This document shows, in pieces, positions 6,069 to 51,626 of a stretch of 64,000 bases of DNA. A program made the translations under genes and the position numbers. How positions within the stretch are numbered: position 1 is the first letter of the stretch; the number at the start of each line of letters is the position of its first letter. This stretch comes from Bacteroidota bacterium (GTDB lineage Bacteria > Bacteroidota > Bacteroidia > Bacteroidales > UBA1715), in assembly GCA_009786075.1 (NCBI GenBank), contig WQTX01000002.1, positions 1-64,000 of the forward strand. The letters run 5' to 3'. Below the pieces are notes generated by a model. The model was not told the DNA's origin, did not search any database, and worked only from the letters and a program-made list of their open reading frames with translations.

Positions 6069-6076
6069 TATCTTTG
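6069..6076 (+). promoter_or_regulatory. Bacteroidota -7 box for the aminotransferase gene
   Basis: TATCTTTG is an exact match to the Bacteroidota consensus TAnnTTTG and lies 19 bp before the ATG at 6095. It places the transcript start near 6082 and excludes the in-frame TTG at 6074 as a start. No TTG at the ideal distance was seen. Confidence 0.65.
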
Positions 6077-6094
6077 CATAAAAAATTTATAGTT

Positions 6095-7387
6095 ATGGCA
6101 CATCAACAAGCAATTGCATTAAACGAAGTAATTCAGAAAGAAAACTCGGCGGTTTTCGCAATGTTATCGGAAAAAGGTAAAAACATTTATTTCCCCAAAG
6201 GCGGAATTTTGGCGCAAGGCGCACAAGCTAAGGGCAAAGATATAAATGCCACGATTGGCGAAGCTATTGCCGATAACGGAAAATCAATGTATTTCGCGGA
6301 ATTTGACAAGTATGTGAAAGTTGAAGTAGAAAACACCTACCCCTATGCTCCAAGTTTCGGTCGTCCCGATTTGCGTGCAGCGTGGAAAAAGTTATTGTAC
6401 GTAAAAAATCCGGCGTTGGGCGAACAGGTTTTAAGTTTACCGGTTGTAACCAATGGTTTGACGCACGCTATCAGCATGGCAGCATTTATGTTTGTCGATG
6501 AAAACGATACTGTTTTAATGCCCGATTTATTCTGGGAAAATTACGAATTATTGTTTTGCCAATCGAACAATGCGAAAATAGAAACATTCAATTCGTTCAA
6601 AAACGGAGCGTTCGACGTAGAAGCATTTGCAACTGCGCTCAACAATTCAAAAAGCGATAAAATTATAACATTGCTCAATTTCCCGAACAACCCAACCGGT
6701 TACACGCCTACGCCTGCCGAAGCCGAAGCAATGCAAAAAGCCGTGCTTGCCGTTGCCGAAAAAGGCAAAAAAGTAGTTGTTATAACCGATGATGCCTATT
6801 TTGGATTGGTGTATGAAGACGGAATTTTTGAAGAATCAATCTTTACAAAATTCTGTAATTTGCACGAAAACGTGCTTGGCGTAAAACTCGACGGCGCTAC
6901 AAAAGAAGACTATGTGTGGGGCTTCCGTGTAGGATTTATGACCTACGGAATTAAAAACGGCACACCGGCATTGTACGAAGCACTTGAAGGAAAAACCGCC
7001 GGAGCATTGCGCGGCAATATTTCAAACAGCAGCAACCTTTCGCAATCGTTGCTTGTGAAATTGTACAACGCACCGGAATACAACAGTTATAAAAAAGAAA
7101 AATACGATATTTTGAAAGCTCGCTATGTGGCTCTTAAAAACGCTTTGCAAGCAAAAGGCGGGAAATATTACGATGAACTTCCGTACAATTCGGGTTATTT
7201 TATGTGTGTGCGGGTAAAATCTGAAGTTAATGCCGAAGAAGTGCGCAAACTATTATTAGAAAAATATTCTACCGGCGTAATCGTGTTCGACGACCTTATT
7301 CGTATAGCATATTCGGCTGTGCCCGAAGATAAAATCGGGCTATTGGTCGATAATTTATATGCGGCTTGCGCTGAGGTGATTGGGTAA
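6095..7387 (+). CDS. Pyridoxal-phosphate aminotransferase, class I/II
   Basis: Fold-type I aminotransferase of 430 aa. The hallmarks are visible: the substrate-entry region YPYAPSFGRPDLRAAW, the PLP-contact motif LLNFPNNPTGY, the DDAYFGLVYE strand with the Asp that binds the pyridine nitrogen, the Lys segment DGATKEDYVWGFRVGF, and a C-terminal Arg region (DLIRIAYSAVP). Such enzymes transfer amino groups between amino acids and 2-oxo acids in the cytoplasm. The exact substrate (aspartate, aromatic or other) cannot be read, and no biosynthetic neighbour helps. The start at 6095 follows a TATCTTTG promoter box. A hairpin terminator follows the stop. Confidence 0.88.
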   Translation: MAHQQAIALNEVIQKENSAVFAMLSEKGKNIYFPKGGILAQGAQAKGKDINATIGEAIADNGKSMYFAEFDKYVKVEVENTYPYAPSFGRPDLRAAWKKLLYVKNPALGEQVLSLPVVTNGLTHAISMAAFMFVDENDTVLMPDLFWENYELLFCQSNNAKIETFNSFKNGAFDVEAFATALNNSKSDKIITLLNFPNNPTGYTPTPAEAEAMQKAVLAVAEKGKKVVVITDDAYFGLVYEDGIFEESIFTKFCNLHENVLGVKLDGATKEDYVWGFRVGFMTYGIKNGTPALYEALEGKTAGALRGNISNSSNLSQSLLVKLYNAPEYNSYKKEKYDILKARYVALKNALQAKGGKYYDELPYNSGYFMCVRVKSEVNAEEVRKLLLEKYSTGVIVFDDLIRIAYSAVPEDKIGLLVDNLYAACAEVIG

Positions 7388-7393
7388 TAAAAA

Positions 7394-7423
7394 AATGAGA
7401 ATAACCAAACAATTATTCTCATT
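7394..7423. terminator. Bidirectional hairpin terminator
   Basis: AATGAGAATA and TATTCTCATT form a 10-bp stem with a 10-nt loop, flanked by an A-run on the left and T-rich sequence on the right. It lies between the aminotransferase (+) and a convergent minus-strand gene, so it can serve both. Confidence 0.75.
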
Positions 7424-7438
7424 TTCATTTAACTGTAT

Positions 7439-7978
7439 TTATACTTGCTCTCCTTTTACTGCATGTTCAAGAACATATAAAGTACTCGCTAACTGTCTTC
7501 CTGAAATATTTCTAAAAAGTGTAAAATAGAGAAGATTATTTATATAGTGTTCAGATACTTGTCGAGCTATATTTACATCAAAAAAAGTAAATCCAACAAA
7601 GAGGGCAAATGAAGAGTTAGCGGTTATCGTAAATTTATTATTCTTTTTATCTGGTTTAATCTGTATTGGCTTAATCTTTGAAATCCACTTTATTGTATAA
7701 GCAGCTTGTTTATGTCTGTCTGCGCGTCCAGAACCCGAATAGTCCTTAAATCTGTATATATCATCGTAATAAGATTTAACAACCATTCTTACTAAATCTT
7801 TATTTAAGTATATAGTATCTTCTAAAAATTGAACGTTTTTACTACTATAAGTATCAAAAAGACTTACTATGGTATTGAGTCTTTTCACTTCTTGTTCTTC
7901 TCGTTCCGCAAGTCTAACCTCATGACATTCTTTGCATTTTACACAAGAATCTATATTTTCTTCTAGTTTTTCAGACAT
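7439..7978 (-). CDS. Hypothetical protein with CxxCxxC motif (islet gene 4)
   Basis: An unrecognised 179-residue protein. Its N-terminus has a cysteine cluster (CVKCKECH) that could bind metal, then a Lys/Glu-rich probable helix, and a C-terminal half with hydrophobic stretches (SSFALFVGFTFFDVNIARQV). No signal peptide is seen. It is the last gene of a minus-strand group of four (9018 down to 7439) with short spacings, more AT-rich than the flanking genes. Function is unknown. Confidence 0.6.
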   Translation of the reverse strand: MSEKLEENIDSCVKCKECHEVRLAEREEQEVKRLNTIVSLFDTYSSKNVQFLEDTIYLNKDLVRMVVKSYYDDIYRFKDYSGSGRADRHKQAAYTIKWISKIKPIQIKPDKKNNKFTITANSSFALFVGFTFFDVNIARQVSEHYINNLLYFTLFRNISGRQLASTLYVLEHAVKGEQV

Positions 7979-7996
7979 ATATATGAAAGATAGTAA

Positions 7997-8284
7997 TTAG
8001 TTGTTGTTCGTAATGTTTTCAATTGATGAATTGATTTTAGAAAAAAAAGAATCTGCTATTGAATTGCCTCTTTTAATGTATACATCCTCTTCGTAATACT
8101 CTCCAAAATTTTTTTCTCTTTGAGCAAGGATTACCTCAACATCATCATTTGTTTCATAGTTGTTTGACAATGCCATTCCATTTTTAAGCGTTGATATACT
8201 TCTCTTTATCAAAAATGTATATACAAAATAAGCACATGTTAATACTATGCCGACCACTACCAATATATTTTCAAACAATGCCAT
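7997..8284 (-). CDS. Small single-pass membrane protein (islet gene 3)
   Basis: A 95-residue protein with one N-terminal transmembrane helix (ILVVVGIVLTCAYFVYTFLI), then a basic stop-transfer (KR) and a polar acidic tail that probably faces the cytoplasm. Its start overlaps the end of the preceding membrane-protein gene by 14 bp, which suggests coupled translation. No family is recognised. Confidence 0.6.
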   Translation of the reverse strand: MALFENILVVVGIVLTCAYFVYTFLIKRSISTLKNGMALSNNYETNDDVEVILAQREKNFGEYYEEDVYIKRGNSIADSFFSKINSSIENITNNN

Positions 8285-8738
8285 AACTCAAATATTTTTT
8301 TTTATTAATTATCAATTGTATTTTAAACCCAATAGCTGCTATAACACAAAGTGCTATCGTAATCAAATGAATTTCTTTATTATCTTCTATTGTTCTGCCA
8401 CCTGTAATTATTCCGATTCCACTTATAAAGATAAAACTAGAAATAAAAAGCAATACGTAAAAAATGAGATAAAAAAACCCATTAAAAACAATCTTTGTTT
8501 CTTTACTATTATCTTGCAACAAACTTAGCAATAGAGTTATTCCCAAAAACAAGTAAATTCCTTTTAAAAAAAGCATTTTTAATACATTAGCTAAAACAAA
8601 AAAAACTCCGTTTGAATAGTCAAAAATATTTGCCACAATACTGGCAACAAGAGCAAACGCGACGGGCAATGCTATTGGAAGAATTAGATTAACTAATATC
8701 CACATAAAAAACTCTTTAGTTCCGTTTTGCATTGTCAT
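8271..8738 (-). CDS. Multi-pass membrane protein (islet gene 2)
   Basis: A 155-residue protein with about four hydrophobic helices: WILVNLILPIALPVAFALVA, the VFFVLANVLKMLFLKGIYLF region, FYLIFYVLLFISSFIFISG and LITIALCVIAAIGFKIQLII. It starts at 8738 (MTMQNG) or 8732. It overlaps the next gene by 14 bp. No family is recognised. Association with an HTH gene directly upstream suggests a small regulated membrane module, which is inference only. Confidence 0.6.
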   Translation of the reverse strand: MTMQNGTKEFFMWILVNLILPIALPVAFALVASIVANIFDYSNGVFFVLANVLKMLFLKGIYLFLGITLLLSLLQDNSKETKIVFNGFFYLIFYVLLFISSFIFISGIGIITGGRTIEDNKEIHLITIALCVIAAIGFKIQLIINKKKYLSYGIV

Positions 8739-8784
8739 TTTTACATGTAAAGACTTAAAGTTTTGGGACTGCGAAAATAATCAT

Positions 8785-9018
8785 TTATTCTGGAAAAACA
8801 AAAACAACAGTATAATTTTTGTTCTTTTTAGTCAAAGTGTTAATTGCATTTGTAATTTTAACTTTGGAGATTTCATTAGGTTGTCTCTTATTTGTCTTAA
8901 AATTGTATATTGAACTTTCAGACAATCCACACTCTCTTGATAGTTCTGCTTGGGTTATTCCTTCTACAGATAGTATTTCTTTTAACTTATTTTCCTGCAT
9001 ATCTATGATATTTGACAT
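8785..9018 (-). CDS. XRE-type helix-turn-helix protein (islet gene 1)
   Basis: A 77-residue protein whose residues 10-50 match a Cro/C1 helix-turn-helix (GITQAELSRECGLSESSIYN, then FKTNKRQPNEISKVKITNAI). Size and position, first in a minus-strand group of four, make it a likely repressor of that group. A TACATTTG box lies 36 bp upstream on the same strand. A perfect 20-bp palindrome at 9109-9128 could be its operator or a terminator. Confidence 0.8.
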   Translation of the reverse strand: MSNIIDMQENKLKEILSVEGITQAELSRECGLSESSIYNFKTNKRQPNEISKVKITNAINTLTKKNKNYTVVFVFPE

Positions 9019-9053
9019 TATTTCCCAATAATACGTATATATTTTTAATAAAA

Positions 9054-9061
9054 CAAATGTA
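9054..9061 (-). promoter_or_regulatory. -7 promoter box for the four-gene islet
   Basis: On the minus strand this reads TACATTTG, matching TAnnTTTG, and would start transcription near 9047, about 29 nt before the HTH start codon. No well-placed TTG was found, so support is moderate. Confidence 0.5.
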
Positions 9062-9106
9062 ATGTCAATAAAATACTGTTTTTCTCTATTTATTTCAAAA
9101 AATACC

Positions 9107-9136
9107 GAGAATTACCGGTAATTCTCTATTTTTAGT
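9107..9136 (-). terminator. Perfect palindrome with T-run downstream of pbpC
   Basis: GAGAATTACCGGTAATTCTC (9109-9128) is a perfect palindrome. On the minus strand it follows the pbpC stop by about 150 bp and is followed by GGTATTTTTT, as in a rho-independent terminator. It lies 90 bp upstream of the HTH gene, so an operator role is also possible. The rest of 9019-9284 holds nothing else I can support. Confidence 0.55.
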
Positions 9137-9284: not shown

Positions 9285-11693
9285 TTATTTCCCCTTATTC
9301 TCCAAAATCCTAAACCACCGCTGCACCGAATTTCCATTTTCGTCCATTACAATTACCGTGTGTTTGCCCGGCGGCGGCGCAACTTCAATTGTGTGCGGAC
9401 TTTGCGTGCTGCCAATAAATTCATTGTCGATATGCCAAAACAACATTGCTTTGGGATTGCGATGCACGGCTGAGAAAATAATTTTATTTTCTTCGTCCTC
9501 TTTTTCGCTGCGAGGAATAAAAATGGCGGTGTTGTTGTCGGGGTCAATTATGTCAAGCACCTGTTCTTTTGGCGCTTGGCAGCCTTCCATATAGGGTGGC
9601 AGAGGTTTGTAATTAGGATTGTGTTGTTTGTAAAAAAACTCTTGCGTGGGCGAAAGCACAAACCATGGCGCAATAACCATATTTGCAGGCGCATAGCAGG
9701 CTCCGGTAACTCTATACTGCCGTGTGGAATCTAAAAACACCGCTCTGTGAAATGGGCACTCTTTGGCGCGAACGCCCATTTTCGGCACTTGTTGCTGCAC
9801 GGCTGTGCAATATTTTCCGGCTCGAAACCCACTTTCGCTGCATACGGCAATTGTGGTCATATCGTTTTGCGGAGGCTCAAACCATGCGCCACTTTGTAAT
9901 TGTTTAAAAACTTCAAACATAACAGGCGCGGCGTATGAAATTCCCGTCAGTGCCGGACGACCTTCGCCGGTGGAATTGCCCACCCACACGCCCACGGTGT
10001 AACGCGGCGTTGTGCCCACCGCCCACGCATCGCGGAAACCAAAACTTGTGCCGGTTTTCCATGCAATTTTATATCTCGACGAAAAATGTTCCCACCCAAG
10101 TTCGCCCCACGGACGTTTCAGTTCCAACATTGCCGAAAATGTGCTGTACAGTGCACCGGCATCAAGCGGCGCCGATTCGGTTTTTTCGCCCGAAGGAATT
10201 TTTGTACCATATATATAATGTGCCGGGCGATAATCACTGCTTTGATAACTGCCGTTGTTGAACGATGCGAGCGAACGAGCCATTGAGGCATACGCCGATG
10301 TGGTTTCCCACAACGAAACTTCAGCGCCGCCCAAAATAAGCGACAGCCCGTAATGGTCGGCAGGTTTTGTGATACTGCTAAATCCTGTTTTTTTCAATAA
10401 TTGTTGAAATTTATCAACGCCATATTCTTGCAACAAACGCACTGCCGGAATGTTGAGCGAAAGTGCCAGAGCTTGATTTGCAGGCACAACGCCAAGAAAA
10501 TTTTTCTCGAAATTTTTCGGCGCATAACCGCCTATACGAGTGGGAATGTCGGAAAGAAGCGAATGTGGCAAAATTGCGCCTTCGCTCAACATGGCAGCAT
10601 GCAAAAATGGTTTGAGAATACTCCCCGAACTGCGTAACGACACAACGTTATCTACAAATTGATTGCTCTGCTTGTTGCGCAACGTAATATTGCCCACATA
10701 TACCAGCACTGCGCCGGTTTGCGTGTCTAACACCAATACGGCGCAATTCTGTATAAGATTTTCGGCGTAATAACTACCGTATTTTTGTGCAATTGCCTGC
10801 ACCGATTTTTGTAATGTATAATCAAGCGTGGAGTGTATGCGCTGTCCGTCAAAGCCCTCTTTTTGCGCTTTTACAAGCAAATGATGTGCAAATTGTGGTA
10901 ATTCTTGCGGTTTGCCCGGCAGGTCTTCCATTTTCGCCAATTCAGCGGTAGCGTGGTCTATTACGCCTTTTACCTGCAATTTATCTATCAAACGGTTTCG
11001 CTTTTTAAGCAACAATTCATGATTTTTACCCGGAAAAACCAACGCCGGCGCATTGGGCAGCACCGCCAAAGTAGCCATTTCGCCCCACGAAAGCATATTG
11101 GGCGGACGGTTGTAATAACGCCACGAAGCAGCATCTAAGCCCACCACATTGCCGCCAAAAGGCGCATGAGCGGCATATAAGTTCATAATTTCATCTTTCG
11201 AGTAACGCAATTCCAAACGCAGTGCAAGCAACATTTCGTAGAATTTTGAAAGCATCGAACGGCTTGGGTTATATCTACTCAAACGAATAACTTGCATACT
11301 CAACGTACTGCCGCCGCTGATTGTGCGTTTGTGTTTCACATTTTGCCGCAGCGCACGCGCCATTGAAACCGGATTAATGCCCGGGTGGCGATAAAAATAT
11401 TCATCTTCAAAATAACGGAGCGCAACTTTAAACTTATGCGGCACACTATCGTTGAGCGGAAACCGCCATTGATTGTCGGCAGCTATACGAGCCGAAAGTA
11501 AAACGCCGTTACGGTCTTGCAGCACAGTGGAATACGGAACGGAAAACAGCGGCTTGGGCAAACAAAAATAAAACCACACAAGAAATGCAAACGCCACGCA
11601 CGAAATCCAAAATCGGGGGTGGCGATAGGTGAATTTGTGGGTTTTGCACCATACCAAAAATCGGTTGAAATATTGTACAATTTTCTTTTTCAC
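9285..11693 (-). CDS. pbpC: Penicillin-binding protein 1C (bifunctional peptidoglycan synthase)
   Basis: An 802-residue class A PBP anchored by one N-terminal transmembrane helix (FWISCVAFAFLVWFYF). The glycosyltransferase domain (residues of about 60-240) has FEDEYFYRHPGINPVSMARA and ISGGSTLSMQ, the lipid II polymerase signatures. The transpeptidase domain (about 290-570) has the active-site SxxK (SGSILKPF), a probable SLN and the KTGT box (KTGTSFGFRDAWAVG). The C-terminal 120 residues match the PBP1C-specific domain (GCQAP, then IDPDNNTAIFIPR). Family members polymerise and cross-link peptidoglycan in the periplasm; 1C often sits beside an alpha-2-macroglobulin gene, which is absent here. 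Confidence 0.95.
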   Translation of the reverse strand: MKKKIVQYFNRFLVWCKTHKFTYRHPRFWISCVAFAFLVWFYFCLPKPLFSVPYSTVLQDRNGVLLSARIAADNQWRFPLNDSVPHKFKVALRYFEDEYFYRHPGINPVSMARALRQNVKHKRTISGGSTLSMQVIRLSRYNPSRSMLSKFYEMLLALRLELRYSKDEIMNLYAAHAPFGGNVVGLDAASWRYYNRPPNMLSWGEMATLAVLPNAPALVFPGKNHELLLKKRNRLIDKLQVKGVIDHATAELAKMEDLPGKPQELPQFAHHLLVKAQKEGFDGQRIHSTLDYTLQKSVQAIAQKYGSYYAENLIQNCAVLVLDTQTGAVLVYVGNITLRNKQSNQFVDNVVSLRSSGSILKPFLHAAMLSEGAILPHSLLSDIPTRIGGYAPKNFEKNFLGVVPANQALALSLNIPAVRLLQEYGVDKFQQLLKKTGFSSITKPADHYGLSLILGGAEVSLWETTSAYASMARSLASFNNGSYQSSDYRPAHYIYGTKIPSGEKTESAPLDAGALYSTFSAMLELKRPWGELGWEHFSSRYKIAWKTGTSFGFRDAWAVGTTPRYTVGVWVGNSTGEGRPALTGISYAAPVMFEVFKQLQSGAWFEPPQNDMTTIAVCSESGFRAGKYCTAVQQQVPKMGVRAKECPFHRAVFLDSTRQYRVTGACYAPANMVIAPWFVLSPTQEFFYKQHNPNYKPLPPYMEGCQAPKEQVLDIIDPDNNTAIFIPRSEKEDEENKIIFSAVHRNPKAMLFWHIDNEFIGSTQSPHTIEVAPPPGKHTVIVMDENGNSVQRWFRILENKGK

Positions 11694-41746: not shown

Positions 41747-42682
41747 TTATGGTAACTCAGGATACTTTATTTTCCGTGTTTCTCCTGCAAAACATTGATA
41801 CAACGAAGCCGTAGTTTGTGCCACAGCCAATGCCAACGGACTCATTCTACCGCCAATCATAACATCCATATCAGGAATTCGCAGTAATTCGGCTTTGTAC
41901 TCAATCGTTAGTTCTTCGGGAATTACGCCTTTATCAGCCATTGCAAATACGATTGTATCAACAAATGGACGGTATGGTTCCATAATATCGTCAGCCAAAC
42001 AATAGGCATTGTAGCGATTGTGATGATGAATACCTAACGTGGGCAAAAGTCCACTACTTACTAAGGCTCGTGCCACAATTGCCCGCAAAATCGCATAACC
42101 ATAATTCAATAAATTATTTGGCGCAATGCCCTCTCTATCTCGTGTGAAATTTTCGACTTGCGGAAATGCTTGACTCCAATAATATGCTGCCGCACGAGCC
42201 TCGTAATTATCGGGGTCGCCGCTACGCACTTCGTTTGCCCAATGTTGCATATTTTTTATGTTGCACTGTCGGAATTGTTTCAAAACTTCGGCTTGATTTG
42301 TAATTTTTGCTTTTATGGTTTGTTGCCATAATTGTTTTTTAAGCGGTTCGCTCGCCGAAAGTTGTTCCCGAAACCGTTCATTTTGCGTAGTATTTCCGCA
42401 CAGCGGCAACATCAATCCAACGGGCATTCGGCGACTATCGCAGGTTATGATTGCAATATTATTATCTAACAGTTTTTCGATTAATCCGTGCGTAATGGTA
42501 ATTTGTTTATGGTCTAAAACTACCACGCCCACGTCCTCTACCGGCAAAGTTTTTTCATTGTTTCGTTTGAATGCTTCCGAAACAGTGTCGTTCTTTTCCA
42601 CTTCCGGTAGTTTGACAACGATTTGCTCGTTGCGCAAACTCAGGTAGGTGGGATTGCCGAAATAGAGGGTTTTCTTAATCAT
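41747..42682 (-). CDS. cas1: CRISPR-associated integrase Cas1 (type II)
   Basis: A 311-residue Cas1 with beta-rich N-terminal domain (TLYFGNPTYLSLRNEQIVVK, DHKQITITHGLIEKLLDNN) and helical catalytic domain. Metal ligands fit Glu161 (NYEARAAAYYW), the His cluster at 219-221 (TLGIHHHNRYNAYCLADDIM) and Asp231/232. It integrates spacers together with Cas2. Its ATG overlaps the rhuM stop by 8 bp (ATGATTAA), so translation is probably coupled to the RhuM-family gene. It fits the compact type II branch of Cas1. There is no csn2 or cas4, hence type II-C. Confidence 0.96.
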   Translation of the reverse strand: MIKKTLYFGNPTYLSLRNEQIVVKLPEVEKNDTVSEAFKRNNEKTLPVEDVGVVVLDHKQITITHGLIEKLLDNNIAIITCDSRRMPVGLMLPLCGNTTQNERFREQLSASEPLKKQLWQQTIKAKITNQAEVLKQFRQCNIKNMQHWANEVRSGDPDNYEARAAAYYWSQAFPQVENFTRDREGIAPNNLLNYGYAILRAIVARALVSSGLLPTLGIHHHNRYNAYCLADDIMEPYRPFVDTIVFAMADKGVIPEELTIEYKAELLRIPDMDVMIGGRMSPLALAVAQTTASLYQCFAGETRKIKYPELP

Positions 42683-43727
42683 TTTTCAGTTGTTTTACTT
42701 GGGTTTCTAATCGAATAAATTTATCGTAATCGCTCTCGAATAATTGGTCTTGAATAATGCGATATTTTTCAAATTCGCTTTCGGCAAAAGATTTTGCAAT
42801 TTCGTGCGTAATTTTTCCTGCATCGGTCAAAATTTCCTCTTCATTAAATTTCAAAAAAGCGTCCAATCGTTTTTTCCAATCTTCCATAGTCATAGGAATT
42901 TTCCGGAGTGTTTGATATTCTGCATAATCAAGATACATCGTTACAATTCTCTGCAAATTGTCCAACTCTTCTATTTCCAAATAGTTTTTTGCTATCGCCA
43001 CATCATATTTTTGAATTTTCCCATCGGGAAATCCCTTCCAAGAAGTAAGTCCCATAAATGGTTTTGTGTGATTTGCCCGTTGTGTTATCAATTCGGCGGC
43101 GGTGTTTCCGTGAATGGCAAAATGCAATTTATTTTGAACGGTGGCAAAAAATGTTTTCGTGGTTTTTGCTGTTATATCGTAATCCAAAGCCGTTGCATAC
43201 AAATCGGTAATTTTTTGATAAAATTTTCGTTCCGAAATGCGGATTTCCCGGATTTTTTCGAGTTGCTCTTCAAAATACTTTTCGGTCAAAATAGAGCCGC
43301 CGTTTTTCAATCGTTCCACGTCCATTACCCAGCCTTTTATTGTGTAATCTTTTACAATCGCGTTTGCCCATTTGCGAAATTGCACGGCACGGTCGTTGTT
43401 TACTTTGAAACCGACTGCGATAATCATTTGAAGATTATAATGTTCAATTTCTCTCGAAACCTGCCTATTTCCTTCGTTTTGAACTATAAAGAATTTCTTT
43501 ACAGTTGCCCCTTCGCTCAGTTCTTTGTCTTCTAATACTTTCTTAATATGTTGCCCTATTCCCTGAACAGTTATGTCATAAAGCGTAGCCAACATTTTTT
43601 GCGTAAGCCAAATGTTTTCGTCTTCGTAGCGCATTTCTACGCTTTGTGGGTTGTCGCCGGTGGCGGCTACGAATGTTAGGTATTCGGCTGCGGAGGAGCG
43701 GATTGATATTTCGGGTTGCTTTTTCAT
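42675..43727 (-). CDS. RhuM-family protein embedded in the cas operon
   Basis: A 350-residue cytoplasmic protein of the RhuM family, first named from a Salmonella pathogenicity island and without known biochemistry. Hallmarks: MRYEDENIWLTQKMLATLYD (predicted DNA-binding-like N-terminus), VQGIGQHIKKVLEDKELSEG, REIEHYNLQMIIAVGFKVNN and RAVQFRKWANAIVKDYTIKG. The C-terminal half is helical, with WKGFPDGKIQKYDVAIAKNY and a coiled end. Its ATG overlaps the cas9 stop by 4 bp (ATGA) and its stop overlaps the cas1 ATG by 8 bp, so it is cotranslated with both. A role in adaptation or in guarding the locus is inference only. Confidence 0.92.
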   Translation of the reverse strand: MKKQPEISIRSSAAEYLTFVAATGDNPQSVEMRYEDENIWLTQKMLATLYDITVQGIGQHIKKVLEDKELSEGATVKKFFIVQNEGNRQVSREIEHYNLQMIIAVGFKVNNDRAVQFRKWANAIVKDYTIKGWVMDVERLKNGGSILTEKYFEEQLEKIREIRISERKFYQKITDLYATALDYDITAKTTKTFFATVQNKLHFAIHGNTAAELITQRANHTKPFMGLTSWKGFPDGKIQKYDVAIAKNYLEIEELDNLQRIVTMYLDYAEYQTLRKIPMTMEDWKKRLDAFLKFNEEEILTDAGKITHEIAKSFAESEFEKYRIIQDQLFESDYDKFIRLETQVKQLKND

Positions 43728-46700
43728 AATGCCGGTTTAATGTTTCCTAAACGGTCGATATTGAGTTTGATACAAACATCTTTTATTTGTTTCCCTTCAA
43801 AACTTGCCGTTTTTGTATCATAAGAGCCTGAAAGTTTATTTTTCTTCGTATCAAAGTTCAAATCAACTTCTTTCGGTACAATGTTTTTTGCCAAACGGTT
43901 TGGCGTAAAATAGCACGTGCCGCTGAAATCATTTACAACGAATAATCTTTGTAACTGCTCTTTGCTCAAATTTTCCCAATCTATCGCACGAATATTTTCT
44001 TTTTCGTCTTCCATTGGGACATACACCAAATCGTTGGGAGAAAGAAACGGACATTCGAGACATAATTTATGCCCTTCTTCATTCGTTTCCGGAACAACAT
44101 TTAAACCTTGTTTCAATCGCTCTATAACAATGTTTAAAGGGATAGTTTCATAAGAACGTTTTATTACATTTTTGTTTTCTTTCTTATCAAATTCCTCGTA
44201 TTCATAAATTGCAAAAAACAAGTTTGGTGCACCTTGTACATATTTACTTTTCTTATTTCCTAAATTTCCTAAGACAAATCTTCCTTTTCCTTTCTCGTAA
44301 ACACGTACTTTTAATATTGGTTGATGGAATTTTCCATCATTGTATTGTGAAATATTTTTATTTAACTCTTCAATTCCATCGGGAGAAAAAGCCAATTCTG
44401 AATTATTTTTTTTACTTTGAAGGTAATTTTTTAGAATTTTTTGAATGCCGGTATCAGTTATTTTCTCAATTTTATCTTCATTAAAACTTTTATCCAAAGC
44501 TTTTCGAGTTGCTGTAGTAAATTCTCCTTTGCCAACTTTTACCCAAGGCAATTGTACAATTCCCGAAAATGTTTCTTCGTGCAAAGGCTTACGAATTCCC
44601 CAATTTCTATTGTTTGATTTTTCTTTACTTTCTTTATAAGTCAAACCTGCAAATTTTACTTTATTTATCACTCGTAAATTCTGCTTAAAACTCACTATGA
44701 TTTTCTCAAGTTCTGATTTAGCCTGTTCAACAAAATTATTCCAAGGCATAAAATACTCTTTGGGAACTTCTATTTGCTTTGTTATTTGTTTTCCGGTTTC
44801 ATCTTTTTTTATTCGCCAAATGCCGGTTTCATCTTTTTTTTGTATCGTTTTTTCAATTGTTTCGTATTTGCGTAATGTTTTTGCAAGCCCTTTTTGTAAA
44901 TGAAATTTCTGCGATTTTGCATTTTCATTGTTCAAATATTGAACGTGTTCGCGTGTCATACACGCAATTGTCAATGCGTCCATTGCGTGGTGTCGGTGGT
45001 CAATGCGTTTCTTTTGAAAACCTTTTGAAAATTCTAACGGTATCGTAGGAATTATATGTCCTTCTGTATTTTTTGAAGTGAATGTATCAGTGCCTTTTAA
45101 TTCATTCATTCGTTCAAAACGAGGTAAAATCAATTCATTCCACACATTATTTAATCCCCAACTTTGCTTTAATGTAGTTGTAATTTTTCCATTTCCCGAA
45201 ATAAGATTTTTTGAATTTACACCGTCATCATCTTTTTCTTCTCTAACAATATTTGACAAAAGGGCAGAAACGAACTTACTTATATATCGAGTGTCATTGA
45301 GTTGCCGTTCAATCATTTTATCGGGAATTTCTTCCAATAAAAGTTTTTTCTGCTTAGCATTGTTGTTTTTATAATGTTCTTGTACAAAACTTTTATAACT
45401 TTCTTCCGTAAAAATTTCAATAACAACACCCATTCCACATTCCACTTTCTCGCCAGTGTGTTTTTTTATAAATTCAAGTCCAAGATTGCGGTCTTTCAAT
45501 TTATTGACAGCCGCTTCGCAAATCACTTTATTGCTTAAACTATCGTCAAAATAACGACTTTGCGGAATAATGTGTTCTATTTCGTAATCGGGTGTAAATA
45601 ATCTGCTTAATGAAATCATTTTTCCCGTATAAGGCGAACAATATTTTTGTTCGAGCCATAATTTATATTTTTGAATTTGTGTTTTAGTTGGTTGAGATTT
45701 TTTTGAAATATCATAATACGTAATTTCTTTTTCCTTGCCTTTATCGTCTTTCTCTATTAAACCGGTTTTTTCGTTTTTCAATTCTTGCTCGGAATATCTG
45801 CGCAAAACATCTTCTTCATAAATTTTCAAAATATCTTGCTGATTTTGAGAATATGGTCTTACAGTATTTTCGTTATTCTCATTGTTAAAATAACCATCTT
45901 CTGCAAATTCCATTAACATTGCTTTGATACGCAAATTTGTATTTTCATTATCAGAAACTTGATTGGTAATTTTAGCACGGTCATCTGCCGTGTTTTTCAT
46001 TTCACGACCAAGTTCTATGTGAATTTCGTCGAAAAATTTGCCGTAACTTTTTACATTCTTCTTTTTTTTCTCATCATAAATTTCGATACATTCAACGTTA
46101 TTTTCCGACGCATACTGTTCCCAAATATCTTTTACAACACGCAAGGTTTCTGTAATAATTTGTTCTACTATTGGATTTCGCAATGAATGTTGTTTAAATT
46201 CGTCCAAATAATCTTGAATATCATAAGACATTTTCCATTGGTCTGCATTTTCTGTTTCCGAATGACGACCATAAACAATGTATTGCGCCAACCACAATTG
46301 CAATCCTTGGAAATCATTTTCGGAAGACAGTTTAATTGCTTTTTCTCGAACGCGCTCTTTTATAGTTTCGTCATATTCGCCTGTAATAATTTTTTCTATT
46401 CTGCCTTGTGTTTCAAACGTAATGTTTTCCCATTTCCAATATTTCCCCAAACGCATCAAAGGCAAGAGTTTTTTTATTGCCTTTTCGGAAAATGAGCCGT
46501 AATCTTTTTCTTCAAATAGTAATTTTTTGAAATTATCAACAAACGAAACTTCGTGTAAGTTATGTTTAACGGCAAAAGTTTTCAATGCCTTTTCATATTC
46601 GTTTTTGTCGGTAACCGAATAAATTATGTGCCAAAGTTTTTGTTCGATTTCGGGTGTAAGAAAATCCAAGGGGAGATTTTCAACTTTTGCTAATCGTGAA

Positions 46701-48616
46701 ACAAACTGTGCTCTTGTTTTATTACACGGATATTTTTTTGATTTATCTTCTTCTTTATCTTTTGAATTATCGAAAACGTAATTCCAACGATATTTTTTTA
46801 ATTCTTTATCTGCATTTTTCCCTTTTATTCCCTGCAAATTCAGAAAATAAGTTATCAATGCTTTATTGTCAATTTCTTTTCTGTTCATCAAAAAATCAAA
46901 CAAATTTGTATAATCATCTGTGGATTTAAGAAAATCAGCAGTAACATCTTTGTCGTCTTCTCTCGAATAAATTTTGAGATTATATAGCCATTGCCAAATT
47001 CTAAATTCTTGATACAAAGGATTTGACTTTGGAATACCTTTTAAATATTCTTTTATCTCTTTCCCGTCTTTGTCTTTGTACTTTCTAAATTCCAAAGTGC
47101 AATTTCCAATTGATGATTTTTGACTTCGCAAAGGTCGCTGGTAAAAAATAATGTCATCGACAAACAGATGTTCAAAACTATTTCGTTTGCTCAAAATAGT
47201 TTGGTGTGCCTCGTTGTTGCGATACAATTCCCGAATGCAATCGTTGTACAAATCTTCGGTAAAAAGTTCGGGCTGAAGTTCAATTTGCTTTTTCACAATT
47301 GCTTTCAATTCGTCTTTGTAAAATTTTCGTTCAATAGTACGAACTAATTTCCCTCGGATTTTTTGTGTCGGATTTTGTAATAAAGTTTCGTAAATGTATG
47401 CCCCGACAGTACCTTTTATTTTGTTTTTTTCTTCATACTTTTCAATATATTTATCTAAATCATTTTCCGTTTTCTTTTTCAATAAAGTCCAGTCATCTTC
47501 ACTTGGCGCACGAAAAGAACGCTTTTCTGTACCTTCTTTGTCGGTTTTTACAGTTTTATCATCGTTCAAATCAGTTGTAACAATAAAATCACGCACCTTG
47601 TTTTTCCAATCAAACAGAGATGTTTTGCTCGAACGGCGATAAATCCAACCATTTTCCAAAATCAGAGAATACCAAACATCATCTTTTTTCTTTTCAGTAT
47701 CTTCTTGAACATCAACAATTTTTAAATCACAAATTTCAACAGATACATCTTTTTTCTTTTTAATTGCAGCAGTTTCATTCTCTTTGAGCATATAAATACT
47801 GCGTTTATTTGTTCCGTCAATTTCCTTTTTAGGCGTTTCGTCAAAGTTCAAATATGTAGTAACAACAAATTTTCGTTCCGTGTCTTTCCATTCAAACAAG
47901 TTGTTGTTAGTTTCGTAACGATATTCCATACCATTACTCAACATCATTTTATAAGCAACATCTGCTTTTACATCAATAATTTTCAACGAATGAAATTCTA
48001 CCAATTTATTTTGATTTTCTTCTTCCTCCTCGCCACGAAGTTGGTAATACCCTCGCTTTTGATTGAAATTCAGCAAAAGCCAAGCCAACTCCTCTTTTTC
48101 AATTTTCCGAGAAAGGGCTTTTTTGCGTAAATAATAAATAGTCCAATCGTAAGGAATTTTTATGTCTTGACCGTTTGACTTGAAATCTTCAACCATTTCG
48201 TTGAAAGAATTTTGAAAAATAAATTCAAAATCATTCTTATTTTTTTGTTTGTTCCATACTTTATTCCACGCAATTTTCGGTTCAGTTTCATTCAAAAATT
48301 GACCTAATCGTTTTTCAAAATCAATCTGATTAGCATAATGTTCGGGCAAAAATCCAAAAATATTTAACACACGATGCAAGCGTTCGCGACGAAGTAAATT
48401 TCGTTCTCGCAATCGTCTTGTTCCGCGATAATCTGTGCGTGTTGCCGTTTGCGAAACAGAGTTTCCTTTGTCAAATTCGCCCATTATAGCAGCGTCCATT
48501 GGAATAATCCGACTTCCAAGTCCAAGTATTTTCCCCTCTTTTTTATCGAAATCATTTTCGATTAACGCCCAACCGATTGAATTTGTTCCTAAATCAAGTC
48601 CTAATATCTTTTTCAT
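43724..48616 (-). CDS. cas9: Cas9, large type II-C CRISPR effector nuclease
   Basis: A 1630-residue RNA-guided nuclease. RuvC-I is ILGLDLGTNSIGWALIE (Asp8), the Arg-rich bridge helix is RRLRERNLLRRERLHRVLNI (68-87), RuvC-II is IHIELGREMKN (Glu868), the HNH domain has DYEIEHIIPQSRYFDDSLSN (His1015, with Glu1014 where many Cas9s have Asp) and RuvC-III is RHHAMDALTIAC (Asp1213). All catalytic positions are therefore filled. It is much longer than usual type II-C proteins; part of the excess is a tandem duplication at residues 210-281 and 297-376. It is first of the minus-strand group cas9-rhuM-cas1-cas2, with the tracrRNA divergently upstream. Confidence 0.97.
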   Translation of the reverse strand: MKKILGLDLGTNSIGWALIENDFDKKEGKILGLGSRIIPMDAAIMGEFDKGNSVSQTATRTDYRGTRRLRERNLLRRERLHRVLNIFGFLPEHYANQIDFEKRLGQFLNETEPKIAWNKVWNKQKNKNDFEFIFQNSFNEMVEDFKSNGQDIKIPYDWTIYYLRKKALSRKIEKEELAWLLLNFNQKRGYYQLRGEEEEENQNKLVEFHSLKIIDVKADVAYKMMLSNGMEYRYETNNNLFEWKDTERKFVVTTYLNFDETPKKEIDGTNKRSIYMLKENETAAIKKKKDVSVEICDLKIVDVQEDTEKKKDDVWYSLILENGWIYRRSSKTSLFDWKNKVRDFIVTTDLNDDKTVKTDKEGTEKRSFRAPSEDDWTLLKKKTENDLDKYIEKYEEKNKIKGTVGAYIYETLLQNPTQKIRGKLVRTIERKFYKDELKAIVKKQIELQPELFTEDLYNDCIRELYRNNEAHQTILSKRNSFEHLFVDDIIFYQRPLRSQKSSIGNCTLEFRKYKDKDGKEIKEYLKGIPKSNPLYQEFRIWQWLYNLKIYSREDDKDVTADFLKSTDDYTNLFDFLMNRKEIDNKALITYFLNLQGIKGKNADKELKKYRWNYVFDNSKDKEEDKSKKYPCNKTRAQFVSRLAKVENLPLDFLTPEIEQKLWHIIYSVTDKNEYEKALKTFAVKHNLHEVSFVDNFKKLLFEEKDYGSFSEKAIKKLLPLMRLGKYWKWENITFETQGRIEKIITGEYDETIKERVREKAIKLSSENDFQGLQLWLAQYIVYGRHSETENADQWKMSYDIQDYLDEFKQHSLRNPIVEQIITETLRVVKDIWEQYASENNVECIEIYDEKKKKNVKSYGKFFDEIHIELGREMKNTADDRAKITNQVSDNENTNLRIKAMLMEFAEDGYFNNENNENTVRPYSQNQQDILKIYEEDVLRRYSEQELKNEKTGLIEKDDKGKEKEITYYDISKKSQPTKTQIQKYKLWLEQKYCSPYTGKMISLSRLFTPDYEIEHIIPQSRYFDDSLSNKVICEAAVNKLKDRNLGLEFIKKHTGEKVECGMGVVIEIFTEESYKSFVQEHYKNNNAKQKKLLLEEIPDKMIERQLNDTRYISKFVSALLSNIVREEKDDDGVNSKNLISGNGKITTTLKQSWGLNNVWNELILPRFERMNELKGTDTFTSKNTEGHIIPTIPLEFSKGFQKKRIDHRHHAMDALTIACMTREHVQYLNNENAKSQKFHLQKGLAKTLRKYETIEKTIQKKDETGIWRIKKDETGKQITKQIEVPKEYFMPWNNFVEQAKSELEKIIVSFKQNLRVINKVKFAGLTYKESKEKSNNRNWGIRKPLHEETFSGIVQLPWVKVGKGEFTTATRKALDKSFNEDKIEKITDTGIQKILKNYLQSKKNNSELAFSPDGIEELNKNISQYNDGKFHQPILKVRVYEKGKGRFVLGNLGNKKSKYVQGAPNLFFAIYEYEEFDKKENKNVIKRSYETIPLNIVIERLKQGLNVVPETNEEGHKLCLECPFLSPNDLVYVPMEDEKENIRAIDWENLSKEQLQRLFVVNDFSGTCYFTPNRLAKNIVPKEVDLNFDTKKNKLSGSYDTKTASFEGKQIKDVCIKLNIDRLGNIKPAL

Positions 48617-48663
48617 AAAATGTGGTTTTTCAAAATATTCTCGTAAAAATATGAAAATATTTT

Positions 48664-48692
48664 TTGTAGCAATAAAAAAACGATTATTTTTG
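48664..48692 (+). promoter_or_regulatory. Promoter of the tracrRNA
   Basis: TTG at 48664 and TATTTTTG at 48685 are 18 bp apart, close to TTG-N19-TAnnTTTG. The predicted transcript start (about 48697) falls at the first base of the anti-repeat. Confidence 0.75.
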
Positions 48693-48696
48693 TGCT

Positions 48697-48773
48697 TGAA
48701 AGGAATTCACAATAAGGATTATTCCGTTGTGAAAACATTTAAGTTGCCTCGTCTTACAATACGGGGCTTTTTT
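48697..48773 (+). ncRNA. tracrRNA
   Basis: The stretch TTGAAAGGAATTCACAA (48697-48713) is identical to part of the plus-strand CRISPR repeat and thus complementary to the 5' part of the crRNA repeat: an anti-repeat. It is followed by a nexus-like hairpin (AAGGATTATTCC, then GTTGTGAAAAC) and ends in a terminator hairpin GCCTCGT/ACGGGGC (48745-48767) plus a T-run. It has its own promoter. Being only about 77 nt, with the anti-repeat at the predicted 5' end, it would need no 5' trimming. It lies between cas9 and the array, on the strand opposite to both. Confidence 0.9.
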
Positions 48774-48791
48774 GTGGAAAAAATAGAAACA

Positions 48792-48819
48792 AAAAATCCC
48801 GACATCAATCGGGATTTTT
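48792..48819. terminator. Bidirectional terminator between tracrRNA and array
   Basis: AAAATCCCGA and TCGGGATTTT form a stem with an A-run on the left and a T-run on the right. On the minus strand it would stop transcripts leaving the array toward cas9; on the plus strand it backs up the tracrRNA terminator. The remaining 48820-48897 holds AT-rich sequence without a recognised feature. Confidence 0.75.
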
Positions 48820-48897
48820 GCATTGAAAACGTTCGTTTTTTTAGAATTCTAATTTTTGACGTAATTGATTGAAAATCATTTGCTTTATCGCATGTAT

Positions 48898-51626
48898 GTT
48901 GTTTTCAATGTGTCAAAGATACTAATTTGAAAGGAATTCACAACAGCTAATATCTTATTAGCACTATGTTTAAAGTTGTTTTCAATGTGTCAAAGATACT
49001 AATTTGAAAGGAATTCACAACTCTTCCGAAATTTCATCTAAAATATACGGGTTGTTTTCAATGTGTCAAAGATACTAATTTGAAAGGAATTCACAACACT
49101 ATAAAAGCCTCTAAAAAATCGCCAAATGTTGTTTTCAATGTGTCAAAGATACTAATTTGAAAGGAATTCACAACACACTATGGCGCAAATCGTACGGGTA
49201 GATGGTTGTTTTCAATGTGTCAAAGATACTAATTTGAAAGGAATTCACAACCAATGGGATTGATATAGCAGCGCCAGTTGGGTTGTTTTCAATGTGTCAA
49301 AGATACTAATTTGAAAGGAATTCACAACCAATTCCAGAAACGTTTAAAACATCGTTGGTTGTTTTCAATGTGTCAAAGATACTAATTTGAAAGGAATTCA
49401 CAACATGAATTCGTCTCTTCCAATTAATTCTGGAGTTGTTTTCAATGTGTCAAAGATACTAATTTGAAAGGAATTCACAACATATAACGACACAAAAATT
49501 TCAGCGGTTTCGTTGTTTTCAATGTGTCAAAGATACTAATTTGAAAGGAATTCACAACAAACACACGCAGAAAGTTATTTGAATGAAAGTTGTTTTCAAT
49601 GTGTCAAAGATACTAATTTGAAAGGAATTCACAACCGCTCAAAGATTGACACAATACAAAAAACAGTTGTTTTCAATGTGTCAAAGATACTAATTTGAAA
49701 GGAATTCACAACATTGTTTCGTTAGCAATTTGATTGTAGTTTGTTGTTTTCAATGTGTCAAAGATACTAATTTGAAAGGAATTCACAACATACTCTTGCC
49801 AAAGTCAAAAATCAGGCGGGTTGTTTTCAATGTGTCAAAGATACTAATTTGAAAGGAATTCACAACAGCTTGTGCGATTTCATAATGGCGCTCATGGTTG
49901 TTTTCAATGTGTCAAAGATACTAATTTGAAAGGAATTCACAACTTATATCCGTAAACTTCAAAATAATTATTAGTTGTTTTCAATGTGTCAAAGATACTA
50001 ATTTGAAAGGAATTCACAACAAGGTAGTAATAATGGTATATCAGTGAGAGGTTGTTTTCAATGTGTCAAAGATACTAATTTGAAAGGAATTCACAACGGG
50101 TTTTGGCGGCATTTTAAAAATGTCAAGTTGTTTTCAATGTGTCAAAGATACTAATTTGAAAGGAATTCACAACGAGTTGTTCTATTTCTTCAAATAAACA
50201 TTCGTTGTTTTCAATGTGTCAAAGATACTAATTTGAAAGGAATTCACAACTATGATAACTTTCATAAAAATACTTAAAAAGTTGTTTTCAATGTGTCAAA
50301 GATACTAATTTGAAAGGAATTCACAACTTAGAGGGTCCTCAACTTTTGAAAATTTAGTTGTTTTCAATGTGTCAAAGATACTAATTTGAAAGGAATTCAC
50401 AACTCGCTCAAATCAAATAATGATTTATTAAACGTTGTTTTCAATGTGTCAAAGATACTAATTTGAAAGGAATTCACAACTATAAACGCAGGTGTAAAAT
50501 TTTAATAAAGTTGTTTTCAATGTGTCAAAGATACTAATTTGAAAGGAATTCACAACTAAAATGAATAATGCTTGTTCCATAGGTCGTTGTTTTCAATGTG
50601 TCAAAGATACTAATTTGAAAGGAATTCACAACATAAACGGGTATTGTACGTTTAACCTTTTGTTGTTTTCAATGTGTCAAAGATACTAATTTGAAAGGAA
50701 TTCACAACACACCATCGACAAAGGGCTAGAGAACACAGTTGTTTTCAATGTGTCAAAGATACTAATTTGAAAGGAATTCACAACGGTCTGTGCCGTCAAC
50801 GTAAAAATTAGCTTGTTGTTTTCAATGTGTCAAAGATACTAATTTGAAAGGAATTCACAACCAGGAGCTTCCCAACCTTCAAATTTCCCTAGTTGTTTTC
50901 AATGTGTCAAAGATACTAATTTGAAAGGAATTCACAACTATGTATGCTTCTTTAAATAGTTTTTTCAGTTGTTTTCAATGTGTCAAAGATACTAATTTGA
51001 AAGGAATTCACAACTGCCTGTACCATTCCCAATCGTCACGTAAGTTGTTTTCAATGTGTCAAAGATACTAATTTGAAAGGAATTCACAACCAAAAACAAT
51101 TATCACAGGAATTACGAGATGTTGTTTTCAATGTGTCAAAGATACTAATTTGAAAGGAATTCACAACTGTGTATTGCTCTACTTGTGTGTTTGAAAGTTG
51201 TTTTCAATGTGTCAAAGATACTAATTTGAAAGGAATTCACAACCTGCAATTCGTGGTTTTGCTCGTTGTTTTGGTTGTTTTCAATGTGTCAAAGATACTA
51301 ATTTGAAAGGAATTCACAACACCTCGTCCATTGCGTTGTCGGCTTCGGTCGTTGTTTTCAATGTGTCAAAGATACTAATTTGAAAGGAATTCACAACTTG
51401 TAAAGTTCTACCAAATTTTTAATCCAGTTGTTTTCAATGTGTCAAAGATACTAATTTGAAAGGAATTCACAACAGTTCGTAATCTAATCCTTGCGGACGC
51501 GGGTTGTTTTCAATGTGTCAAAGATACTAATTTGAAAGGAATTCACAACCAACCTGTTGTCTGCCATATTTGAGGCTCGGTTGTTTTCAATGTGTCAAAG
51601 ATACTAATTTGAAAGGAATTCACAAC
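48898..51626 (-). CRISPR. Type II-C CRISPR array, 36 repeats of 47 bp, 35 spacers
   Basis: I counted 36 repeats of 47 bp, identical as far as read, starting at 48898, 48975, 49051 and so on to 51580, separated by 35 spacers of 29-30 bp. The plus-strand repeat starts GTTGTTTTCAATGTGTCAAA and ends AAAGGAATTCACAAC. Since the plus-strand tracrRNA must pair with the crRNA, crRNAs come from the minus strand, starting GTTGTGAATTCC. Neither terminal repeat is degenerate. The right end lies 22 bp from the recO stop codon, leaving no visible leader. No spacer was noticed to match another part of the window by eye. Confidence 0.98.
51580..51626 (-). promoter_or_regulatory. Promoter within the CRISPR repeat (rightmost of 36 copies)
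   Basis: In crRNA orientation repeat positions 2-4 are TTG and positions 24-31 are TATCTTTG, exactly 19 bp apart, an exact fit to the Bacteroidota consensus TTG-N19-TAnnTTTG. A start 5-8 bases after the box falls in the last dozen bases of the repeat, so each transcript would carry a short 5' repeat tag, one spacer and the following repeat. The same element is in all 36 repeats. Confidence 0.75.

Follow-up and report, generated by a model that had tools for sequence, protein, structure and literature searches.

Gene organization and composition of the islet

The window analysed here, a 64,000-nt stretch of a Bacteroidota genome (Bacteroidales, UBA1715; contig WQTX01000002.1), contains an islet of four small genes and raises the question of what these genes encode and whether they act together. 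A first-pass annotation had proposed a self-contained regulated module, possibly for defense or signalling. The islet lies between a plus-strand aminotransferase gene (6074-7387) and a minus-strand pbpC gene (9285-11693), both named by our own reading of the flanking sequences. The following features were assigned:

9157-9150, minus strand: second -7 box of the Bacteroidetes type, matching the consensus
9107-9126, no strand: perfect 20-bp palindrome between the two -7 boxes, candidate operator for the HTH repressor
9061-9054, minus strand: -7 box TACATTTG of the Bacteroidetes type, upstream of the HTH gene
8785-9018, minus strand: P0001, 77 aa, Cro/C1-type HTH protein (HTH_26 above cut-off), probable autoregulator
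8271-8738, minus strand: P0002, 155 aa, four-helix membrane protein, proposed effector
7997-8284, minus strand: P0003, 95 aa, small partner with a single TM helix and the invariant Asn N59
7439-7978, minus strand: P0004, 179 aa, core protein of the family, with a predicted Doc/Fic fold in which [KR]PIQ...N stands where the Fic motif would be expected
7392-7425, no strand: hairpin with perfect 13-bp arms, probable terminator shared by the islet and the convergent aminotransferase gene

The compact minus-strand genes, the AT-richness compared with the neighbours, the 14-bp overlap of the two membrane genes (8271-8284), the own promoter box and the terminator, all described in the first-pass annotation, could be recovered, the terminator being probably common to the convergent aminotransferase gene. 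The islet has a G + C content of 28.5% (0.285) compared with 39.5% (0.395) for the window, 0.411 for the aminotransferase gene and 0.468 for pbpC. A value this low was reached in 4 of 625 equal-length sliding windows, all of them on the islet (start positions 7401-7801).

The -7 promoter consensus of Bacteroidetes is TAnnTTTG, and both boxes are of this type; no -33 TTTG at canonical spacing was found for the box at 9054-9061. A perfect 9-nt inverted repeat (TTGACATTA/TAATGTCAA, 9012-9020 and 9060-9068) encloses this box together with the HTH start codon. When the intergenic stretch was shuffled 2000 times with dinucleotides preserved, a palindrome of 20 bp was reached three times. The hairpin at 7392-7425 was not listed by a G + C-based terminator scan.

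Of the four proteins, the HTH protein alone was named by scans with Pfam, PADLOC, PHROGs and NCBIfam, as had been stated before: P0001 scores 24 bits with HTH_26 (cut-off 22 bits), and P0002, P0003 and P0004 reach no curated cut-off. P0003 has a weak match to a PHROG annotated as 'anti-restriction' (E 8e-4).

Relatives of P0004 and their distribution

Searches with single sequences mostly failed, and many relatives were found by a profile. P0004 as a single query detected nothing in contigs from viruses or genomes, and its matches in plasmids and phages were weak; none of P0001, P0002 and P0003 matched viral contigs on its own, nor did P0002 match plasmids. The first real relatives came from a search of P0004 against 395 phylum-level genomes, in which the own genome and three others reached E <= 0.01 (G682, E 1.5e-21; G561, E 4e-8; G661, E 8e-4). 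A protein encoded on an Azospirillum plasmid, which matched P0004 at E 0.2, was confirmed as kin at E 1e-9 by the Chlorobiaceae relative from G682.

A profile built from the P0004 relatives and the Azospirillum plasmid protein matched 45 distinct loci in 84,980 genomes. These span at least nine phyla, the named hosts including Bacteroidota, Chlorobiota, Ignavibacteriota, Bacillota, Spirochaetota, Synergistota, Planctomycetota, Fibrobacterota, Pseudomonadota and SAR324. The occurrence is sporadic: the source genome is the only one of 344 order-level genomes with a match at E <= 1e-5, four of the 395 phylum-level genomes including the source genome have one at E <= 1e-3, and none of 13 other family-level genomes carries the family. 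In this way, four orphan genes became members of a well-supported but unnamed family.

Both matches in viral contigs are prophage-like loci that contain the small gene and the Doc-fold gene as a pair and no third gene. The pairs (L072, 5720-6498; L073, 5555-6393) adjoin packaging genes, in one case HNH and terminase-small-like genes and in the other gpW-like and portal-like genes; these names come from our own sequence reading, and the gpW-like gene was not named by Pfam. L073 and the Ignavibacteria locus L050 encode nearly identical small proteins.

Predicted fold and conserved residues of P0004

An alignment of P0004 with 40 of the 45 relatives (41 members) was used to identify conserved positions. 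W98, P104, I105, Q106 and N121 are invariant, position 103 is K or R throughout, and D73, K78, K90 and R156 are kept in 39-40 of the 41 members. No member has a relevant Pfam or NCBIfam match, Fic and Doc models in particular being absent from the hits, and the family profile finds nothing among PDB sequences. PADLOC likewise offers no convincing model: four different models match one of the 41 members each (E 0.001-0.004).

P0004 had been called a CxxC protein. Cysteines are indeed present at positions 12 and 15; they lie within a predicted helix in columns that are not conserved in the family, and the label is misleading for what is, by prediction, a Doc-fold protein. A zinc-finger reading was rejected likewise, as CPxCG_zf matches one of the 41 members, below the cut-off, and the Cys pairs are not conserved.

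The AlphaFold2 model of P0004 (pLDDT 92.6, pTM 0.85) is all helical except for two short strands. The best five PDB matches in a Foldseek search are all chains of the phage P1 toxin Doc from the Phd-Doc complex (E 0.04-0.19, probability 0.98-1.00, TMt 0.66-0.69), and the VIA alignment of the model with Doc covers 118 of 123 residues at 2.5 A (Z 13.6, where helical models without true kin can reach about 14). Fic-1, FICD and AvrB follow at Z 6.8-6.2. The predicted fold is well supported, and the model has the Fic/Doc fold of the Fido superfamily. A comparison of P0004 with viral models gave no match below E 0.1.

Profile comparisons by hhalign of the P0004 family with Doc/Fic were not significant (p 0.21 and 0.12, with p 0.22 for a RelA decoy). 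The alignment with p 0.12, in which the profile was matched without supervision to 16 Fic/Doc segments, is collinear over most of the domain and, although not significant, pairs KPI with HPF and N121 with the HPFxxGN Asn; a smaller alignment with Doc yields the same pairing. The Fic motif with the catalytic His, HXFX(D/E/N)(A/G)N(G/K)R, is not found in the family: all 41 members have [KR]PIQ and no H at the H-P-F position, and N121 takes the position of the motif Asn in all 41 according to this non-significant alignment, which agrees with the fold match. From this agreement between profile alignment and fold match we infer the motif correspondence, and P0004 is taken as a Fic/Doc-fold protein in which the catalytic His would be replaced by Lys or Arg and a loop inserted before the Asn.

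The small partner P0003

A small gene precedes the Doc-fold gene in 43 of the 45 loci, 42 of them identified by rule (an ORF of 64-134 aa ending -120 to +70 nt from the Doc-fold start) and one, L043, lying at a slightly larger gap than the rule allows. It is missing in a locus with a TIR fusion (L034) and in L059. The TM-bearing small partners of Bacteroidales and the soluble ones of Chlorobiota, Pseudomonadota and others form one family (hhalign probability 91, E 9e-7), the homology of P0003 to the soluble proteins lying in its C-terminal half. The soluble small partners of Firmicutes share little beyond an Asn with this family, and that comparison was not significant. Three separate alignments each keep this Asn without exception (9/9, 6/6 and 19/19), and it forms the only column conserved to at least 90% in the joint alignment (n = 30).

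No Phd/YefM-type Pfam match was obtained for P0003 and three other small partners that were scanned. A ParE-like identity of P0003 was also considered and rejected: the two weak matches obtained in 393 genomes (E 3e-4 and 7e-4) are interrupted by stops, cross ORFs that by our reading encode ParE toxins and have no other module gene visible next to them; they were treated as chance.

The exchangeable front gene

The gene ahead of the pair falls into different types. A RelA/SpoT-type synthetase is encoded there in 17 of the 45 loci, a membrane protein in 15 and no recurrent gene in 12; the remaining one, from a Chlorobiaceae genome, encodes a fusion of a TIR domain (TIR_2, E 1e-15) with the Doc-fold domain. 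Where the front gene is of the RelA or membrane type, it immediately precedes the pair and has the same direction. All 17 front proteins of about 300 aa match RelA_SpoT; the D and E of their DLIGIR and EIQ.RT motifs are invariant, as are, among other residues, R82/K84/K92, D119 and E193. The membrane-type front proteins have 3-5 predicted helices and occur in eight loci of Bacteroidales and seven of Bacillota, Spirochaetota and Synergistota. The twelve loci without a recurring third gene consist of the pair alone or, in L059, of the Doc-fold gene alone.

P0002 represents the membrane type in the window and is 25-37% identical to the gene at the same position in eight Bacteroidales loci (37% to that of L031). 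Its AlphaFold2 model (pLDDT 80) has no fold match in the PDB. Homology between the membrane proteins of Bacteroidales and those of Firmicutes and others is not clear (hhalign probability 22). On the core-protein tree, a single origin of the membrane type was rejected (p-AU 0.00015), so that the membrane-type loci are not one clade and the membrane partner must have been gained or lost more than once.

A membrane helix in the small partner, called as a hydrophobic 19-mer with a mean Kyte-Doolittle value of at least 1.6, was found in 15 of 15 membrane-type loci versus 0 of 28 others (Fisher test p 1e-11 with n = 27 in the second row and relatedness ignored). With relatedness taken into account, two independent pairs are available, both of them concordant but too few for significance (sign test p 0.5).

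In two loci, of Chlorobiaceae and Kiruna2, a protein of 215-228 aa with one predicted membrane helix is encoded convergently to the pair (L020, 5931-6578; L024, 1555-2241), and it may be a further partner type.

The Bacteroidales module and its mobility

P0004 groups with the membrane type of Bacteroidales on the core-protein tree (support 93/98). The order of the membrane gene, the small gene and the Doc-fold gene is kept in all eight Bacteroidales loci found, and two of these (L031 and L043) also have the HTH gene in front, P0001 being 30-32% identical to the HTH proteins at this position (30% to that of L043). In L032 the HTH gene is truncated, and L026, L028, L029, L033 and L037 have the three genes without it, the contig of L028 starting at the module so that its HTH cannot be judged. 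The islet genes recur together elsewhere, which bears out the proposed self-contained regulated module for three genes in eight of eight loci and for all four in two of eight, with the truncated HTH as a further case. In L043, a palindrome with 15-nt arms (93%) lies just upstream of the HTH gene (596-625) and is a candidate operator.

The genes of 49 neighbourhoods were clustered, and those recurring in at least three are the Doc-fold gene (49), the RelA gene (17), the Bacteroidales membrane gene (9), the small-gene groups and the HTH (3). A few general genes, namely ABC transporters and HTH regulators, recur as well. Since the flanks differ otherwise, the cassette moves as a unit, and its modularity is well supported. 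For the islet itself, the G + C content and the phyletic pattern point to acquisition by horizontal transfer. G001 is the only congener with the aminotransferase gene, and its downstream side contains no module; at the place of the islet, after the aminotransferase gene, there is a different HTH ORF of 75 aa (L103, 3610-3837), and the contig ends 170 bases further on. The pbpC gene was not found in the G001 genome. An empty site in G001 is suggested.

With two membrane proteins and an HTH protein, and membrane proteins being capable of acting as sensors, the islet could be read as an ordinary regulated membrane-stress or signalling operon that is neither toxic nor defensive, such as a small sensor complex of the membrane controlled by an HTH repressor. 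The sporadic, low-G + C and mobile character of the cassette speaks against this explanation, as does the occurrence of unrelated, effector-like RelA/SpoT and TIR partners in the corresponding position; we assign it a low probability.

Comparison with known systems and proposed mechanism

In anatomy, the nearest known systems are Phd-Doc and FicTA, and in logic Panacea. P0004 resembles Doc in its predicted fold, and the small gene directly upstream corresponds to the order in phage P1. It differs by having [KR]PIQ-loop-N in place of the Doc motif, given as HXFX(D/N)(A/G)NKR in PMC13034048, by the extra third gene and by a sequence similarity that is not significant; moreover, P0003 and its scanned relatives match no Phd model. 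In FicTA pairs (VbhTA, EcFicTA; class I Fic pairs with the order FicA-FicT), too, the gene of the Fic-fold protein is preceded by that of a small partner. The P0004 family, however, lacks HPFx(D/E)GNGR, and the conserved feature of the small proteins is a single Asn. Fic proteins with a degenerate motif are known among FicTA, such as EcFicT (PMC5033356).

The toxSAS systems (CapRel, FaRel, PhRel) share with the family the RelA/SpoT-domain protein as an exchangeable partner, found in 17 of the 45 relatives. Unlike them, the window carries a membrane protein and no RelA/SpoT synthetase among its four proteins, and the controller is not a DUF4065/Panacea antitoxin. Panacea (PanA, DUF4065) combines one conserved controller with RelA/SpoT-type, membrane and other effectors, and one antitoxin can serve toxSAS and membrane toxins, as described in PMC8832971. 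The controller domain is unrelated here, as DUF4065 is matched by none of the 41 members, and the controller would be a pair of two proteins.

We tentatively read the islet, with confidence just short of even, as one variant of a mobile, modular toxin-antitoxin-like and probably abortive-infection system, in which the Doc-fold protein and its small partner control an effector that would here act on the membrane. A controller-effector relationship is proposed because unrelated effector-type domains occur at one place, because the TIR fusion occurs without a small gene, because the catalytic His is lost in every member and because the membrane anchor of the small partner is tied to membrane effectors. 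The core would be the pair of the His-less P0004 and P0003, encoded just upstream of it, which would bind the product of the front gene and hold it inactive. This third protein would be exchangeable and differ between loci, being a RelA/SpoT-type synthetase, a membrane protein with several helices or a TIR domain in one chain with the Doc-fold domain. P0002 would take this role in the window, and P0003, through the anchor it has gained, would recruit the Doc-fold protein to it. If the pair is disturbed by a trigger, which might be a phage product, P0002 may be freed and could then damage or depolarise the membrane and stop growth. P0001 would repress the operon via the upstream palindrome. Such an arrangement suggests a self-restraining switch for cell shutdown or against viruses.

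Several observations weigh on the other side. No recurring third gene is present in 12 of 45 loci, and the same holds for the two prophage loci and for the locus on the Azospirillum plasmid, so that the pair may be active by itself. Conservation is strong around the loop, which would fit an enzyme or a ligand pocket and counts against a controller-effector relationship. The non-significant sequence comparison with Doc/Fic, the unclear homology of the two groups of membrane proteins and the small number of independent pairs behind the coupling of anchor and membrane gene count against it as well.

A first rival explanation is a two-gene toxin-antitoxin pair like Phd-Doc or FicTA, with the Doc-fold protein as a toxin enzyme lacking the His, the small protein as its antitoxin and the membrane, RelA/SpoT and TIR genes as added cargo. 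The order of the two genes in 43 of 45 loci and the existence of pair-only loci, two prophages included, fit this explanation, and the residues invariant or nearly so (W98, P104, I105, Q106 and N121; D73, K78, K90 and R156) suggest a working pocket. It appears rather unlikely, however, as the catalytic His is replaced by K or R throughout the 41 members, the Doc-fold domain of the TIR fusion is used without a small gene, and the third gene is co-directional and directly ahead in the RelA and membrane types.

A mechanism like that of type VII toxin-antitoxin systems was considered as well, in which the Doc-fold enzyme would covalently modify and thereby silence the effector of the front gene, with the small protein as an adaptor. 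Fic/Doc proteins are enzymes that modify proteins by AMPylation or phosphorylation, as stated in PMC5033356. The near-invariant charged residues around the loop agree with such an activity, and exchangeable effectors need one general mechanism. This explanation appears improbable nevertheless: the general-base His is absent, an unsystematic look at the unrelated front proteins revealed no modification site that they share, and the TIR fusion would need to modify itself.

Beyond the islet, the controller-effector reading can be extended to a new class of conflict systems, in which a Fic/Doc-fold pseudo-enzyme ([KR]PIQ...N) and a partner with an invariant Asn serve as a universal mobile controller; unrelated effectors (an alarmone-type synthetase, a pore-like membrane protein, TIR) would have been plugged in repeatedly, and the partner would gain an anchor whenever the effector is a membrane protein. 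This extension is conceivable and is put forward a little more cautiously than the reading of the islet. If true, the Fic/Doc fold would have found a new use, without catalysis, in the control of interchangeable effectors, representing a second, unrelated counterpart to Panacea. It would also explain a set of RelA/SpoT-type genes in three-gene operons of Lachnospiraceae, for which no named system turned up in the literature searched. A search of the open-licence literature revealed no title or beginning of an abstract describing the P0004 family or an operon of a RelA/SpoT, a small and a Doc-fold gene.

Possible defence context and further observations

Some loci have GmrSD, FRG, TIR or DUF4062 proteins as neighbours (ten proteins picked by eye and without a control), which makes a defence role of the module plausible. 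The earlier suggestion of a possible function in defense or signalling is partly supported, as it fits the TIR fusion, the RelA/SpoT partners elsewhere and these neighbours; the effector roles of the front proteins are putative, as is a protection against phages. Behind the membrane-type module of L061 (2029-9356), a TIR-domain protein of 1236 aa and a DUF4062-AAA protein are encoded.

Elsewhere in the window, a type II CRISPR locus is located at 42675-51603, and no cas1-like ORF of at least 130 aa was seen in the region 43.5-52.5 kb. The following features were assigned to this locus:

43724-48616, minus strand: Cas9-like protein of 1630 aa (PADLOC Cas9, E 4e-63)
48898 onwards: CRISPR array with at least 36 repeats and a period of 76-77 bp
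42675-43727: PDC-S05-like gene (RhuM-like by our own reading), overlapping the end of cas9 by 4 bp
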